From assembly GCF_009258045.1 (NCBI RefSeq), contig NZ_CP041166.1:1054001-1118000 (forward strand): 64,000 bases of DNA, in the 5' to 3' direction. The DNA is from Sulfurimonas xiamenensis. Its GTDB lineage: Bacteria; Campylobacterota; Campylobacteria; Campylobacterales; Sulfurimonadaceae. The notes under the pieces are model-generated. The model did no database searches. It saw only the letters and a program-made list of their open reading frames with translations, and had not been told where the DNA came from. This document shows, piece by piece, positions 24,234 to 31,062 of this stretch (position 1 is the first letter of the stretch; each line of letters opens with the position of its first letter). A program made the position numbers and the translations under genes.

Positions 24234-25421
24234 ATGAAACATTCCATAAAAAATATATTTCGTAATCTAATTCTATTTCTTTTTACGGCAACAATATTGG
24301 CTGGAGTTGGTATTTTAGTAATAATAAATCATATTAATTCTTATAAAAAAATAGAAAATTTAAATAATCAAAAATATATTATTTCAACACTTGTAAATTT
24401 GCCTAAAAATGATTTGGCACTAACTCTTATAGAGTTTAACAGCAAAAGCAGCCAACTAAATTATGAAATCGAAAAACTTTACAATATGTATGAATATGAT
24501 TTTATGGAGAGATATATACTTTCAAATGAGAAAGAATATCTTGCTGATTTAGACAGACTAAGCTCTCTTGCAGCAGCATTCAATAAAAAAGCTGGCAACT
24601 ATTATAATGAAAAAACAGAGCAAAATGAATTAAGAAAAAGCTCCGATTCTCTTTTGGAACAAATCAACTCTATAATATTTAAAACTACAACATATAATCA
24701 AACAAAATTTGATATTTACAAAAATATAATATTTGTAATTTTTGCCATACTTTTTTTGGCTTCTGTTTGGTATAGAAACAGACTAAATGCGATATATAGA
24801 GATTTAGAATTTTTATACAACAATGAAGAGAATAAAAATTATAAAATATTTTCCAAAGAGATTAATGATATCTTATTTAAAATAAAAAGAAAACCTGTAA
24901 CATCTGAGAATCTGACAATGATTGATCCTGTAACAGGAGTGAATAATTTAAAAGGAATGATCAGCTCTTATGATGAAAAAAAAGATATCAAAGAGAGAGG
25001 TTATACAGCAGTAACTGTAATAGAAGTTGACAACTTCTCAAAAACAAATAGAGTTTATTCTCAAGAACTTACACAAACTATACTTAAAAAAATTGCGTAT
25101 TTATTATCTCTACATCAACAAACTGCTGATGTAATTGCAAGAACAGACTATAATCAGTTTACTCTGATATTTTCTAGAGATGAGAAAAAAGAGCTCTTTA
25201 AAGATGTAGAAAATATTCGTGAAAATATTTCTGAATTAAGAGTAGAATCTCCAGAATTAGGAGAGATAGAGATAACGGTAAGCGGCGGATTTGTTATGAA
25301 ACCATACAATCTGCCACTTGAAGAAGCAATCAAAGAGGCTAAAAAGATTTTAAAATTTTCACAAGATCACGGTAAAAATAAAATCTCTCAAGTGAGAGAT
25401 TTAGCTCGTAACGAGTTATAA
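24234..25421 (+). CDS. Membrane protein with a degenerate GGDEF domain
   Basis: 395 residues. Two membrane helices (about residues 10-30 and 163-180) enclose a helical periplasmic domain, as in sensor proteins. The C-terminal domain has the GGDEF fold order (MIDPVTGVNNLKGM, then YTAVTVIEVDNFSKTNR, then VIARTDYNQFTLIFSRD, then ITVSGGFVMKP). The signature GG(D/E)EF is DYNQF at the matching place, so diguanylate cyclase activity is unlikely. It could bind c-di-GMP or GTP, or pass on a signal by dimerisation. It ends overlapping the convergent SdhB-like gene by 6 nt. Confidence 0.8.
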   Translation: MKHSIKNIFRNLILFLFTATILAGVGILVIINHINSYKKIENLNNQKYIISTLVNLPKNDLALTLIEFNSKSSQLNYEIEKLYNMYEYDFMERYILSNEKEYLADLDRLSSLAAAFNKKAGNYYNEKTEQNELRKSSDSLLEQINSIIFKTTTYNQTKFDIYKNIIFVIFAILFLASVWYRNRLNAIYRDLEFLYNNEENKNYKIFSKEINDILFKIKRKPVTSENLTMIDPVTGVNNLKGMISSYDEKKDIKERGYTAVTVIEVDNFSKTNRVYSQELTQTILKKIAYLLSLHQQTADVIARTDYNQFTLIFSRDEKKELFKDVENIRENISELRVESPELGEIEITVSGGFVMKPYNLPLEEAIKEAKKILKFSQDHGKNKISQVRDLARNEL

Positions 25422-26498
25422 AAAAGAGACTTTAACTCTATGTTTATCAAAACCAAGAGTTGTTATGTTTTTTTCACCCTCTAACAACATTTTAAATTGT
25501 TGCTGTGAAATTACGGGGAGTTCTATCTCTCTGTTCATTATCTTTTCTATTCTTTTTTGCTCTTTGTCAAAAAGCATAAGATCATTTTCATCTCTAACAA
25601 CTATAAAATCAGCATTTTCATCTTTTGCTTCAAGAAGAATTTCTCCGGCAATTTTAAGTGAAAAATCTTTATCTGCAAGAGCAGAATATGGGGCTAAATC
25701 TTCTTTTGAGTGAGACAATGCTACATAATTTGCTTTAGAATTTTTGATTATAGAAGCACAAGATTTTTCATCTATACCTTCAAATTCTGCTATATTAAAA
25801 CCTTCAAAAGATTGAAATATTTTTACATTTTCTATTTTCGAATCTGAAATTGCATTTTTACTCATTTTAAAATCTGTAACTTTTGGTAGCATTTCAAAAA
25901 GAGATCTTATTTTGTTCTCTTTATTTGCATCATAATTAAAAACTCTGCGTTTTAATGAAGTGTGATACCAAATTCCAGTTTCTTTACATGAAATCTTCTC
26001 TAAAATCTCCTGTTTTAAATCAGGATTTTGCTCAATTATATCACTTGCTATTAACAGTGAATGATCTCCAATATAACTTCTATGAATATCGTATGTATTG
26101 GAAGCAAAATAGTCCAATTCATACCTTTTAGCATACTCATCCATTTGACTTTGAGTAATATAATCCTTAAAAAAACTAATTTTCTCTATATAATCTCTTT
26201 TATCAACAATAAGATCATTTAAAGCCCTGTAAATACTAACAGGCTCTATTTTAAATTCGTTGGATGTTTTTTCAACAATATCCGAGATTAATTCATTTGC
26301 ATTTAGATACAAATTGTTTATTTTTAGATTAAAATCACCAACTGGATCATAAGCAAATTTTTCAATACTGTTTATATCGTTTAAAAGATCTAAGATAGTA
26401 TCTTCGGCTTTATACTTTAGAGTATATTTTTTATAATACGGCAGATAGTCAGCTTTAGCATCAAATCTAAAAAGTTCTACATGTACTTCTGTTGTCAT
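25416..26498 (-). CDS. Cluster-less SdhB paralogue (DUF5644/HdrB-like), divergent from sdhA
   Basis: 360 residues from the start chosen here. GGAAAG lies 6 nt before this ATG; a longer frame from 26648 runs through the promoter region. Residues 8-30, FRFDAKADYLPYYKKYTLKY, match FRFNADEDYLPYYENYTMDV of the neighbouring SdhB. FKIEPVSIYRALNDLIVDKRDYIEK matches TIEPLNTKRAVKDMIIDKADFWEK. All cysteines of the [2Fe-2S] loop and both later clusters are absent; only two scattered cysteines remain. The C-terminal third (YVALSHSKEDLAPY, ADFIVVRDENDLMLFD) loosely resembles the end of HdrB-like proteins, again without their cysteines. I know related Campylobacterota proteins as DUF5644. A structural or assembly role for the Sdh/Mfr complex is inferred. 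Confidence 0.75.
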   Translation of the reverse strand: MTTEVHVELFRFDAKADYLPYYKKYTLKYKAEDTILDLLNDINSIEKFAYDPVGDFNLKINNLYLNANELISDIVEKTSNEFKIEPVSIYRALNDLIVDKRDYIEKISFFKDYITQSQMDEYAKRYELDYFASNTYDIHRSYIGDHSLLIASDIIEQNPDLKQEILEKISCKETGIWYHTSLKRRVFNYDANKENKIRSLFEMLPKVTDFKMSKNAISDSKIENVKIFQSFEGFNIAEFEGIDEKSCASIIKNSKANYVALSHSKEDLAPYSALADKDFSLKIAGEILLEAKDENADFIVVRDENDLMLFDKEQKRIEKIMNREIELPVISQQQFKMLLEGEKNITTLGFDKHRVKVSFL

Positions 26499-26568
26499 CA
26501 CTTTCCTTACATTATATAATAGTAAAAAATAAAGACAAAGTATATCACAAAAAAAACAAAAACAAAGT

Positions 26569-26583
26569 GTGTAAATTCTACAC
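26569..26583. promoter_or_regulatory. Inverted repeat in the divergent promoter region of the sdh operon
   Basis: GTGTA-AATTC-TACAC, 5 bp arms, in the 211 bp A/T-rich region between the SdhB paralogue and sdhA. TTTTACACATTT follows at 26620-26631. It may be an operator acting on both genes; no regulator can be named. Confidence 0.3.
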
Positions 26584-26709
26584 TTATCACACTTATAAAT
26601 ATGGGTGATTATGGAACATTTTACACATTTATAATAACTTTTTATCATTCACAAAGGGTAAAAATTGTACAATCAGCCTTATTTTATTCTTATTAACAAA
26701 GGAAAGCTA

Positions 26710-28422
26710 ATGGGTATTCCTATATATACTTACGATGCAATCATTGTCGGTGCAGGTCTAGCAGGATGTGCCGCTGCAAGAGAGTTACAAAATGCAGGTA
26801 AAAAAGTTGCAGTTATAACCAAACTACATCCGCTTAGAAGTCATTCAGGAGCTGCACAAGGCGGCGTTAATGCTGCTTTTAGCGATAATGACAGTGTGGA
26901 ATTGCACGAATTTGACACGGTAAAAGGAAGTGACTACTTAGCTGATCAAGATGCTGTTGAGTTTATGTGTAAAAATGCACCGGAGACTATTCGCTGGGCA
27001 GAGAGAATGGGTGCGGCATTTAGCAGAACTGCCGATGGAAAAATCGCGCAAAGACCTTTTGGCGGACAGTCATCCCCAAGAGCATGTTATGCAAAAGATA
27101 GAACAGGTTTAACGCTTTTGCAAACTATTTACGAGCAGGCTTTCCGCGTCGGTGTTGAGTTTTGGGATGAGTGGTATGCTGCCGACCTTATCTATAAAGA
27201 CGGTAAAGTTTCAGGTGTAGTTGCGTTTAATATACGGGATTTGCAAGTAGCCATTTTTAATGCTAAATCTGTTATGTTTGCAACAGGCGGATATGCAAGA
27301 AGCTATAAAATCAACTCAAATGCACATGCAAATACGGGTGACGGACTCTCTATCGTAGCGCGCCACGGGCTGCCGCTAGAAGATATGGAGTTTGTTCAGT
27401 TTCACCCCTCAGGACTTTCAGGAAACGGAGTTTTAATCTCTGAAGCGGCTCGCGGTGAAGGCGGTCGTCTCTATAACTCTCTTGGTGAGAGATTTATGGA
27501 AAAGTACGCTCCAAATGCTATGGAGCTTGCATCTCGTGATGTTGTGTCTCGAGCTATCTTAAATGAGATAAGAGAAGGGCGCGGCGTTGGACCGAGAAAA
27601 GATGCAGTTTACATCGATGTAACTCACTTAGGAAAAGATTTAATCATGGAGAGACTCCCTGAGCTTCGCGAACTTGCCATGACTTTCTTAGGCCTTGACA
27701 TGATAAAAGAACCTATCCTTATCTCTGCAACAGCGCACTACTCTATGGGCGGTATCCCTGTAAATATTGCCGGAAATGTTCGTAAAAACAACAACGAATT
27801 TGTAGAGGGATTTTATGCGGCGGGTGAGTGCTCATGTGTTTCAGTTCACGGTGCAAACCGCCTTGGTGCAAACTCTGTTCTTGAAGCGCTTCTCTTTGGT
27901 CGCTTTGTGGGCAAAACAATGGTAAATGAGATAGATACGATTCCTCTTCGTGAAGCAACAGAAAAAGATGCAAAGAGAGCTCTTGATGAGATTGATTTTG
28001 TACTCAACAACAACGGAACTGAAACAATCACACAGCTTAGAGAAGAGCTTCAACAGTGTATGACTGCAAATGCAGGTGCATTTAGAACAAAAGAGACATT
28101 AGAGATTGCGGTTGCAAAAGTTAAAGAACTTCGTGCTAGATTTAAAAACATCCGCATAAAAGATAAATCAAAAATCTTTAACACGGAACTTCAAGAAGCT
28201 ATAGAGTTTGGTCATATGATTGACTACTCTGCATTTATCGTAGAGAGCGCTATTGCTAGAAATGAGAGCCGCGGCGCGCACTTTAGAGAAGATTTTGACA
28301 CTCGTGATGATGAAAACTTCTTGAAACACACTATGGCTTACATGGATAAAAAAGGTGATATAGTACTTGATTATATGCCTGTTGTTCTTGGCAAGCATGA
28401 GCTAAAAGCAAGAAATTACTAA
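26710..28422 (+). CDS. sdhA: Fumarate reductase/succinate dehydrogenase flavoprotein subunit (SdhABE/MFR type)
   Basis: 570 residues from the ATG after AAAGGAAAG. DAIIVGAGLAGCAAARELQ binds FAD. RSHSGAAQGGVNAAF near residue 45 has the histidine that carries covalent FAD. HPSGLSGNGVLISEAARGEGG and ATAHYSMGGIPVN hold dicarboxylate-binding residues, and GANRLGANSVLEALLFGR closes the FAD site. It matches the enzyme of Wolinella and Campylobacter known as 8-methylmenaquinol:fumarate reductase (MfrABE, SdhABE). Unlike those periplasmic enzymes there is no twin-arginine signal peptide, so this form should be cytoplasmic. It reduces fumarate or oxidises succinate with the next two genes. Confidence 0.92.
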   Translation: MGIPIYTYDAIIVGAGLAGCAAARELQNAGKKVAVITKLHPLRSHSGAAQGGVNAAFSDNDSVELHEFDTVKGSDYLADQDAVEFMCKNAPETIRWAERMGAAFSRTADGKIAQRPFGGQSSPRACYAKDRTGLTLLQTIYEQAFRVGVEFWDEWYAADLIYKDGKVSGVVAFNIRDLQVAIFNAKSVMFATGGYARSYKINSNAHANTGDGLSIVARHGLPLEDMEFVQFHPSGLSGNGVLISEAARGEGGRLYNSLGERFMEKYAPNAMELASRDVVSRAILNEIREGRGVGPRKDAVYIDVTHLGKDLIMERLPELRELAMTFLGLDMIKEPILISATAHYSMGGIPVNIAGNVRKNNNEFVEGFYAAGECSCVSVHGANRLGANSVLEALLFGRFVGKTMVNEIDTIPLREATEKDAKRALDEIDFVLNNNGTETITQLREELQQCMTANAGAFRTKETLEIAVAKVKELRARFKNIRIKDKSKIFNTELQEAIEFGHMIDYSAFIVESAIARNESRGAHFREDFDTRDDENFLKHTMAYMDKKGDIVLDYMPVVLGKHELKARNY

Positions 28423-28431
28423 GGAGAATTT

Positions 28432-29409
28432 ATGAGCAAAGATTCAATTACTAAACAAAAAGTAAACTTCAAAGTATTTCGCTTTAATGCTGATGAAGAT
28501 TATCTTCCATACTATGAAAACTACACAATGGATGTTACTTCTGAAGAGGTTGTTTTAGACATACTAAACAGAATAAAATGGGATCATGACGGAAGTTTTT
28601 CATACAGAAGAAGTTGTCGCCACGGTATCTGCGGGGCATGTGCCATCAAAGTAAACGGTAGAAGCACTCTCGCATGTAAAGAGAGCATGTCTACTATGGT
28701 AGAGTACTTTGGAAATGATCTCACAATCGAGCCTCTTAATACAAAAAGAGCCGTAAAAGATATGATTATTGACAAAGCCGACTTCTGGGAAAAACATGCG
28801 GCTGTGACTCCTTATCTGGTTGCAGATGTTGATGAGTGTCCTTCATGTGAAAACCTTGTATCTCCACATGATGCAGAGGAGCTAGACGAGGCTGACCTCT
28901 GTATCCAGTGCGGGGCATGTCACTATGCTTGTCCGGTTGTTGAGATAAACAGTGATTTCTTTGGTCCTGCAGCATTTGCGGCAGCTTACCGCTTTGAAGC
29001 AGACATTCGTGATAACGACGGCGAAAGACTTAGCAATGTCAATGAAGAGAAACAGGGTGTTTGGGATTGTGTCAAATGTTTTGAGTGCGCGGAAGTTTGT
29101 CCAAAAGATATAAATCCGATTGCTAAAATCACGAAACTTCATCAAATGGCGTTTAAAAAAGGTGTGGCAAAAAACAATGTCGCAACTCGTCATGCAGTCG
29201 GTTTCTTACACTCTATCAAAAAACATGGTGTTCTTGATGAGGGCGGTTTAGTTCTCTACTCTGAAGGGCCCTCAATTGTAAAACATATTCCAGTCGCTCT
29301 TCAAATGTATAGAAAAGGCAAAATAATCATGCCTTGGAATATGCCAAAATCAGACAATCTTGATGAGATACAAAAACTTGTAAAATCATCATCAACAGTA
29401 AAGTTCTAG
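28432..29409 (+). CDS. sdhB: Fumarate reductase/succinate dehydrogenase iron-sulfur subunit
   Basis: 325 residues, longer than classical SdhB. The [2Fe-2S] site is SCRHGICGACAIKVNGRSTLAC (residues 59-80). The first tetranuclear site begins at CPSCENLVSP and continues with LCIQCGACHYACPV near residue 160, and CVKCFECAEVCPKDINP near residue 214 holds the last cysteines. It passes electrons between the flavin of SdhA and SdhE. GGAG lies before the start, 9 nt after sdhA. The C-terminal tail (about residues 270-325) is an addition seen in the MFR type. Confidence 0.93.
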   Translation: MSKDSITKQKVNFKVFRFNADEDYLPYYENYTMDVTSEEVVLDILNRIKWDHDGSFSYRRSCRHGICGACAIKVNGRSTLACKESMSTMVEYFGNDLTIEPLNTKRAVKDMIIDKADFWEKHAAVTPYLVADVDECPSCENLVSPHDAEELDEADLCIQCGACHYACPVVEINSDFFGPAAFAAAYRFEADIRDNDGERLSNVNEEKQGVWDCVKCFECAEVCPKDINPIAKITKLHQMAFKKGVAKNNVATRHAVGFLHSIKKHGVLDEGGLVLYSEGPSIVKHIPVALQMYRKGKIIMPWNMPKSDNLDEIQKLVKSSSTVKF

Positions 29410-29420
29410 GAGTAAAAGAG

Positions 29421-30302
29421 ATGAAAAAATTAAAATATGCACTTTTTACAGGATGTACGGCAAAACAGAGTACTCCGGAACAGATGATGTCAACTTTGGC
29501 AGTTGCAAAAAAACTAGATATTGAACTTGTAGAACTGACAGAAGCTTCTTGCTGCGGCGCTTCTCACCTGCAAGACTATGATGATTTTCTCTCGCTGGTA
29601 CTAAATGCAAGAAATATAGCATACGCTGAAAAACATGGTCTTACAATGGTCACTATCTGTAATACATGTCAGCTAAACACTGCTATGACAAAACACAGAC
29701 TCGATAATAATGCAGAACTAAAAGCAAAGGTCAACGAAAAGCTTGCAGAAGTCGGTTTAGAGTACAAAGGCACCTCAAACATCATCCATTTTTTGTATGC
29801 GATTATCGATGATTTCGGTTTAGATAAAATCAAAGAGATGGTTGTAAAACCATTAAGCCAGTTCAACATAGCTCCGTTTTACGGTTGTCATAACATCCGC
29901 CCTTCAGAGCTTCATGACGAGTCTCACAAACAAAAAGAGAACCCGTACAACCCTACTTCACTTGACGACCTTATCATCGCATGCGGTGGCATGAATGTTG
30001 AGTATGAAGAAAAAAACAAATGCTGCGGTTTCCATGTAGAGCTTCAAGCTCCTCATACTGCGGCAGTTCTTACAGGAAATGCAATAGCGGGAGCAACGGA
30101 TAACAACGCCGACATGATGGTAACACCATGCCCGCTTTGTCATCTAAAACTAGACACTCAAACTAAACATGCATCAGAAGCTATAGGCAGAGAAGTCTCA
30201 CTTCCAGTTCTTCACATGCAGCAAATGGTAGGTCTGGCACTAGGATGCAGCCCTGTAGAACTTGGTTTAAAGCACCATGTTACGGATGTGAACTTCATCT
30301 AA
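29421..30302 (+). CDS. sdhE: Heterodisulfide reductase B-like third subunit of the fumarate reductase/succinate dehydrogenase
   Basis: 293 residues with two cysteine-rich CCG domains. The first is FTGCTAKQS, then EASCCGASH and CNTCQLN; the second is YGCHNIRP, then NKCCGFHVE and CPLCHLKLD. In HdrB these motifs bind noncubane [4Fe-4S] clusters. In non-classical succinate:quinone oxidoreductases (types with SdhE/SdhF) and in MFR this subunit replaces the membrane anchor and contacts quinone at the membrane face. No transmembrane helices are present. It lies 11 nt after sdhB and is followed by a terminator. Confidence 0.92.
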   Translation: MKKLKYALFTGCTAKQSTPEQMMSTLAVAKKLDIELVELTEASCCGASHLQDYDDFLSLVLNARNIAYAEKHGLTMVTICNTCQLNTAMTKHRLDNNAELKAKVNEKLAEVGLEYKGTSNIIHFLYAIIDDFGLDKIKEMVVKPLSQFNIAPFYGCHNIRPSELHDESHKQKENPYNPTSLDDLIIACGGMNVEYEEKNKCCGFHVELQAPHTAAVLTGNAIAGATDNNADMMVTPCPLCHLKLDTQTKHASEAIGREVSLPVLHMQQMVGLALGCSPVELGLKHHVTDVNFI

Positions 30303-30451: not shown

Positions 30452-31062
30452 ATACACCCCTGAAATACACCCCTGTGAATGGAAATACACCCCTGTGAAT
30501 GAATCTCCACTTTTTAAAAAATTATATACTCTAAGTTTTAACTAAAATCTTTCAATTTGCAATATGTTTAATTGTAATGAATATAAATAGTTAAAATTCA
30601 CATGATTCATAATTAAAAAATAGGATTGACAAATGCCGACAAGACTGAGAGTTGATTTAGCAGGGTATCATCATATTATAAATCGTGGAGTAAACCTTTG
30701 TGATGTCTTTAACTGCAATGATGACAAAGAGATGTTTTTACAAATCATCAATAAAAGTGCTACTCTTCATAAAATAATATTACATGATTACTGTTTGATG
30801 GACAATCACTATCACTTGCTGATAGAAACAAAAAATACTCAAAGAAGACGGTATCTTACATGTAAGGCAAGAGAAACAATTCCAAGAGCATTTTTATGAT
30901 GTTTGTACAAAAATAGATAGAAACTTAGCAATACTTAACGCATACCAAGACGGTTACTCTCAAGCAAGCATAGCAACTTATTTGAATGTATCAAAATCAT
31001 TGATAAGCAAAGTTGTAAAAAGTGGAGATTCATTCACAGGGGTGTAATTAGGGGTGTAATTA
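30452..31062 (+). mobile_element. Decayed RAYT element with inverted terminal repeats
   Basis: The left end has TACACCCCTG at 30453, TACACCCCTGTGAAT at 30466 and TACACCCCTGTGAATGAATC at 30486, that is three tandem starts of the same motif ending CTCCACTTTTT. The right end is the exact reverse complement, AGTGGAGATTCATTCACAGG at 31021, followed by a further GGGGTGTAA unit. Between them is a broken REP-associated tyrosine (Y1, HUH-type) transposase gene. The same end motif heads the intergenic repeats at 11.9-13.3 kb. The inner arms at 30486-30513 and 31021-31046 match at 26 of 26 bases compared by eye. Confidence 0.85.
30633..31047 (+). pseudogene. REP-associated tyrosine transposase (RAYT), frameshifted and internally deleted
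   Basis: The first 80 residues are intact: MPTRLRVDLAGYHHIINRGV is the usual RAYT start, and LHDYCLMDNHYHLLIETK carries the HUH-type metal motif (HYH). The frame then breaks near 30840 and stops at 30899. The +1 frame continues as DVCTKIDRNLAILNAYQDGY, a helix-turn-helix SQASIATYLNVSKSLISKVV, and ends SGDSFTGV-stop. Intact RAYTs have about 250-330 residues, so roughly half, including the catalytic tyrosine region, is missing. The last eight codons and the stop are the inverted repeat itself. It cannot be active. Confidence 0.88.

Follow-up and report, generated by a model that had tools for sequence, protein, structure and literature searches.

A cluster-free relative of SdhB and SdhE, encoded beside sdhABE in Sulfurimonas xiamenensis, belongs to a family found across Campylobacterota

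The succinate:quinone oxidoreductase operon of Sulfurimonas xiamenensis lies in a 64,000-nucleotide stretch of contig NZ_CP041166.1, hereafter the window. Next to it is a gene for a protein that resembles two of the operon's own products fused together (Table 1). The sdhA, sdhB and sdhE genes follow one another in that order on the strand opposite to the fusion gene, as an earlier sequence-only reading of this DNA had it when it described the gene as divergent from the operon. The translated protein begins MTTEVHVELFRFDAKADYLPYYKKYT, and its ATG is preceded by the Shine–Dalgarno-like AAGGAAAG. The same element recurs in one relative (locus L003) and nearly the same in another (L001), therefore an open reading frame longer by 50 codons is unlikely to mark the true start. 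Promoter-like matches are found on both strands between the fusion gene and sdhA, which are not evidence of function; the promoter and terminator scan returned 35 promoter-like matches against 24.1 expected, and 6 terminator-like matches against 3.3 expected. Profile searches of the whole genome found a single PF18712 match and sdhE, and a search with the FrdC profile NF010072 found no frdC.

Two other neighbours can be mentioned here. A GGDEF-domain gene (24234-25421, + strand) lies tail to tail with the fusion gene, with an overlap of 6 bp; it is found at the same place in loci L002, L003 and L004 and was not detected there in L001. After sdhE comes an 88-aa open reading frame (30633-30899, + strand), which to the eye resembles a truncated REP-associated (Y1-type) transposase.

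Table 1. Features of the fusion gene and the adjoining sdhABE operon, in window coordinates
Feature	Position	Strand	Basis
Cluster-free SdhB-SdhE fusion (Fer2_3-like + DUF5644 + HdrB-like_C), 360 aa	25416..26498	-	translation, Pfam, model, ligand columns
SdhB-like part, residues 1-209: N-terminal 2Fe-2S-type domain + DUF5644	25872..26498	-	profile match, 1qlb_B superposition
SdhE/HdrB-like part, residues 219-360: second CCG domain + C-terminal region	25416..25844	-	HdrB superposition, ligand columns
Divergent intergenic region, fusion gene / sdhA, 211 bp	26499..26709	.	start codon to start codon
sdhA, flavoprotein of cytoplasmic class E succinate:quinone oxidoreductase	26710..28422	+	TIGR01812, 769.7 bits
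sdhB, true iron-sulphur subunit, 12 ligand cysteines	28432..29409	+	profile matches, ligand columns
sdhE, HdrB-like anchor subunit with CCG domains	29421..30302	+	NF042965, 233.7 bits; CoB_CoM_SS_B, 215.6 bits

The fusion protein matches three Pfam families above their curated cut-offs: Fer2_3 over residues 7-104 (6.4e-7, 29.8 bits against 27), DUF5644 (PF18712) over residues 109-204 (2.6e-7, 31.0 bits against 25) and HdrB-like_C (PF22196) over residues 276-353 (2.2e-9, 37.6 bits against 33.4). This is the domain order expected of the DUF5644/HdrB-like_C family. It also places beyond chance the two SdhB signatures that had first drawn attention to the gene, both of which are present. The Pfam scan reported neither the CCG domain nor any match to the Sdh5/SDHAF assembly factors, and at 30.3 bits the protein stays below the curated cut-off of TIGR00384 dhsB (88 bits). 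Its sole significant match by sequence in the PDB is 3kwl, a crystal structure from H. pylori (7e-22). The earlier reading is too narrow, and the gene is no local oddity: Pfam families for it and a solved homologue already exist.

When a profile of the N-terminal half (29 relatives) was compared with one made from 12 true SdhB proteins, the two matched at an E-value of 5e-35 over 200 columns; residues 4-204 are homologous to SdhB. It follows that DUF5644 is the cluster-bearing second domain of SdhB without its cysteines. In the same manner, the C-terminal halves of split relatives match true SdhE (3e-23, 271 columns). An AlphaFold2 model of the fusion protein, made from 39 sequences without templates, has a pLDDT of 92.8 and a pTM of 0.87. 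In the VIA-align list, which has no bearing on families that do not appear in it, the whole model superposes on 3kwl (Z 28.1, rmsd 2.9, 348 residues), residues 1-208 on W. succinogenes FrdB (1qlb_B; Z 17.0, rmsd 3.0, 198 residues) and residues 219-360 on residues 121-288 of HdrB (5odc_B; Z 16.5, rmsd 2.0, 137 residues). Only this section of HdrB is covered, so the first HdrB domain is absent from the fusion protein. Over its whole length, the protein is homologous to class E SdhB plus the second half of SdhE/HdrB. The proposal of a fused, metal-free relative of both subunits is borne out, and where a predicted structure unlike SdhB had been named as the weak point of that proposal, the model is SdhB-like.

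The claim that the cysteine ligands are missing also stands, and it extends to the whole family. Among 29 family members, the 12 SdhB ligand columns hold a cysteine in five members at position 213, in one at position 82 and in none elsewhere, and no SdhB ligand set is kept. Among 38 C-terminal parts, the 10 SdhE ligand columns hold only isolated cysteines (five at position 45, four at position 202, otherwise none), and no CCG cysteine motif survives. Compared with class E SdhB, the window's protein lacks all 12 ligand cysteines and its [2Fe-2S] loop is shortened, in fact largely deleted in the alignment to SdhB. Compared with SdhE/HdrB, it keeps the fold of the second CCG domain and the C-terminal region but not the CCG ligands, and the first CCG domain is gapped. 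Judging from these columns, no relative should be able to build a cluster at the SdhB or SdhE ligand positions. With every iron-sulphur ligand set gone, the fusion protein cannot relay electrons through such clusters. Other features of the two subunits are retained: 19 of the 105 non-cysteine positions that are invariant in true SdhB persist in 70% or more of the family (including F16, F18, D23, Y24, P26, Y28, N75, P101, G178 and G209), as do 6 of 124 such SdhE positions in the family, D227 and R257 among these. The protein is a twin of SdhB and SdhE from class E succinate:quinone oxidoreductase that keeps both folds but is catalytically blank.

The gene is under purifying selection, with a dN/dS of 0.141-0.169 against three Sulfurimonas relatives. 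Corresponding values against locus L001 are 0.057 for SdhB, 0.039 for SdhA, 0.028 for SdhE, 0.13 for ThiL and 0.058 for TruD. Near-invariant residues run through 53 aligned family sequences, and nearly all listed genome matches of the family have open frames without inner stops. A pseudogene is rejected on the dN/dS values. That the gene is a decaying relic without function might be argued from the loss of all catalytic ligands and from its absence in many genomes; the selection, the open frames and the near-invariant residues make this very improbable indeed, and we regard it as largely refuted. Two genomes of one genus do carry an in-frame stop inside the aligned stretch (G061:C1:1429068-1429715 and G330:C25:19455-20090), perhaps because the gene boundary has shifted or decay has begun.

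A tree of 48 rows (27 family members, 12 class E SdhB, 4 MFR SdhB and 5 FrdB) gathers the family into one clade with support of 100/100. This clade joins class E SdhB, its nearest kin, at 95/93, apart from MFR SdhB and FrdB; the family sits on a long stem (1.46), and for the MFR and Frd groups the tree program gave a warning that long branches meet. The family is an ancient one in Campylobacterota, of single origin and derived from a class E SdhB-SdhE pair.

Family members come in several forms. Thirty of the 36 loci retrieved as relatives hold the family, the other six (L029-L033 and L035) being matches to true SdhB, and all come from Campylobacterota records save L024, which is labelled only Proteobacteria. 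The forms are long fusions, adjacent gene pairs and the shortened fusion seen in the window. Short fusions are found in Sulfurimonas, Arcobacteraceae and Sulfurovum relatives; those from Helicobacter are either single fusions near 500 aa or gene pairs encoding some 220 and 272 aa, and those from Sulfurospirillum are pairs of about 225 and 275 aa. Campylobacter-type genomes have pairs in some cases and short fusions in others (such genus labels in the surveyed genomes, e.g. Helicobacter-type, were read from neighbourhood and gene form). The structure 3kwl is the same kind of protein as the window's fusion, but it has about 500 residues, whereas the window's protein has lost the first CCG domain. 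Long and split homologues, unlike the window's fusion, retain the region of both CCG domains.

From its family and length, we infer that 3kwl is H. pylori HP0468. A table in PMC9570263 gives HP0468 as a DUF5644 protein, and a passage of the same article describes candidates such as HP0468 as conserved in Helicobacter species with sheathed flagella. HP0468 variants appear in the gastric cancer association study PMC6090961, which describes the gene as upregulated by hydrogen, with its function yet to be determined, and 3KWL is listed as of unknown function in an entry of PMC3397514. In the open-access literature we found no functional study of the family, and no description of it as a cluster-free SdhB-SdhE.

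The neighbourhoods of the family depend on the genome. Half of the 30 loci with a homologue (15) show genes of the sdh operon, and none appear in the remaining 15 stretches, some of which are short. In eight loci (L005-L008, L016, L017, L019 and L034) the homologue immediately precedes sdhA, both on one strand; in four (L001-L004) the two are divergent; in L009 the homologue follows sdhE; and in L015 and L022 thiL or thiL-truD intervenes. An apparent operon X-sdhA-sdhB-sdhE, with the homologue in first place as X, is seen in the Arcobacteraceae and Sulfurovum-type loci. The homologue and sdhE lie within about 6 kb of each other in all 17 genomes in which both are listed on one contig; the 25 carriers with cytoplasmic sdhE also include four with the two genes on different contigs and four without a listed position. 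The gene thus neighbours sdhABE in every genome where both were found on one contig, and in genomes without sdhABE its neighbours differ. A search of 20 contexts for a constant operon partner outside sdhABE found none common to all. Here the neighbours are thiL and/or truD in several families, rsmD downstream of the homologue in Campylobacter-type loci, and aroA and an unnamed gene in four Arcobacter-type loci. Five Helicobacter-type loci have pepF together with two small genes, both unnamed.

In these five loci (L074, L075, L083, L084 and L085) the homologue sits between a 160-180-aa gene, which is next to pepF, and a gene whose product has about 100 aa and a hydrophobic N-terminus. A Pfam scan of both small genes in L074 found no match.

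In order to see how the family is distributed, we surveyed 397 Campylobacterota genomes with the profiles PF18712 (198 positive genomes), SdhE NF042965 (203, weak matches counted), the family profile A1 (337, a number that takes in true SdhB) and FrdC NF010072 (300). A genome was counted as a carrier if it had a PF18712 match, an A1 match at or below 1e-20 without cytoplasmic sdhE, or an A1 match below 1e-40 with it; the A1 thresholds depend on sdhE since A1 also picks up true class E SdhB, with E-values of about 1e-20 to 1e-38. By this rule, which weakly scoring copies in sdhE-positive genomes could escape, and with kinship among the genomes ignored, 244 genomes carry the gene; hosts of the family include stomach Helicobacter. 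Cytoplasmic sdhABE is found in 25 carriers (6 also with frdC) and the exported MFR form in 45, all with frdC; the remaining 174 have neither, 172 of these having frdC alone and 2 none. The 153 non-carriers comprise 94 genomes with cytoplasmic sdhE, 6 with MFR, 51 that have only frdC and 2 that lack all three. PF18712 had no match in 14 well-known control genomes. A broader alignment was searched against 37 genomes for very divergent homologues: 34 stayed negative, including 31 sampled frdC-positive non-carriers, two known positives matched (3e-50 and 3e-43), and G368 matched weakly at 4e-7, perhaps through its MFR SdhB.

These counts do not sustain the specific tie to sdhABE that the sequence-only reading had proposed. 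That reading had taken a predominance of homologues outside sdhABE genomes as its refutation, and such a predominance is what the survey shows. The gene is absent from 94 of the 119 genomes with cytoplasmic sdhABE and from 77 of the 300 with frdC, so these enzymes can do without it. Taken with the 174 carriers that have neither sdhABE nor MFR, this rules out an obligatory subunit or scaffold of SdhABE. Some complex II-type enzyme is present in 242 of the 244 carriers, which says little since such an enzyme is near-universal (393 of the 397 genomes). An extra subunit, built permanently into the SdhABE, MFR or Frd complex, would fit the linkage to sdhABE and the position in the operon, but the patchy presence within the window's genus (4 of 31 genomes, against 30 of 31 for sdhE, with G294 among the negatives) renders it improbable. 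Nor, to our knowledge, do the W. succinogenes QFR structures contain anything besides FrdA, FrdB and FrdC.

Our preferred reading, to which we give roughly one chance in three, is that the protein may assist complex II-type flavoproteins, as a binding partner without a redox role or as an assembly helper, by analogy with the flavoprotein chaperones SDHAF2 and SDHAF4 (review PMC10238741). The order in which these two bind is described in PMC10784507. The likeness to Sdh5/SdhE (YgfY)/SDHAF2 and SDHAF4 lies only in the proposed role, namely binding of the flavoprotein before the iron-sulphur subunit. The SdhB-like half would take the site of the true iron-sulphur subunit on a flavoprotein, be it SdhA, FrdA or the SdhA exported in MFR, and would hold that flavoprotein during flavin attachment, or until the mature partners (SdhB/SdhE or FrdB/FrdC) arrive. 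Stabilization of this decoy would fall to the HdrB-like half, and the protein would be an accessory, dispensable in many lineages. Several points favour a role in complex II: the class E origin, the retained SdhB body, the linkage to sdhABE through rearrangements, the first place in the operon in two lineages, and the absence of Sdh5/SdhE (PF03937) from all 121 Campylobacterota genomes searched, in a search that did match the E. coli and Caulobacter controls. Against it stand the many genomes without the gene, the diverse neighbourhoods elsewhere and the shortened [2Fe-2S] loop. In SdhB this loop sits near SdhA.

The same structural evidence would serve a regulator by competition, in which the decoy displaces SdhB/SdhE or FrdB and throttles electron flow to quinone rather than aiding assembly. 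The separate, divergent upstream region in Sulfurimonas suits this idea; the operon position in Arcobacteraceae and Sulfurovum-type loci argues against opposed expression, and we consider such a regulator unlikely. We give the same chance as to the assembly helper to the idea that the scaffold was recruited to an unrelated task and that its place beside sdhABE was inherited from its birth locus. The 174 carriers with neither sdhABE nor MFR, the neighbours in those lineages (thiL/truD, aroA, rsmD, or pepF on one side and a TerB-domain gene on the other), and a dN about three times that of SdhB all point in this direction. However, gene order and strand have been rearranged several times and the linkage to sdhABE has survived, more than plain inheritance would require.

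Returning to the assembly helper, its boldest version is that Campylobacterota made their own complex II maturation factor from a duplicated SdhB and SdhE, one decoy that would serve SdhABE, MFR and FrdCAB alike; we hold this to be distinctly doubtful. The W. succinogenes sdhABE genes encode an 8-methylmenaquinol:fumarate reductase, as stated in a passage of PMC2680327. Either way, a widespread family in a phylum with major pathogens has kept the bodies of two electron-transfer subunits while every metal centre was removed. Should it serve complex II-type flavoproteins, this would explain how covalent-flavin enzymes mature in the phylum without the known assembly factor. If it does not, it would be a clear case of an iron-sulphur scaffold reused elsewhere, with a crystal structure already at hand.

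A further observation from the survey concerns true SdhE. In G003, G058, G074, G096, G131, G145, G199, G238 and G346 the profile gave two matches of about 1e-35 to 1e-39 rather than a single one near 1e-68; it looks as though cytoplasmic SdhE is divided over two genes or frames there.
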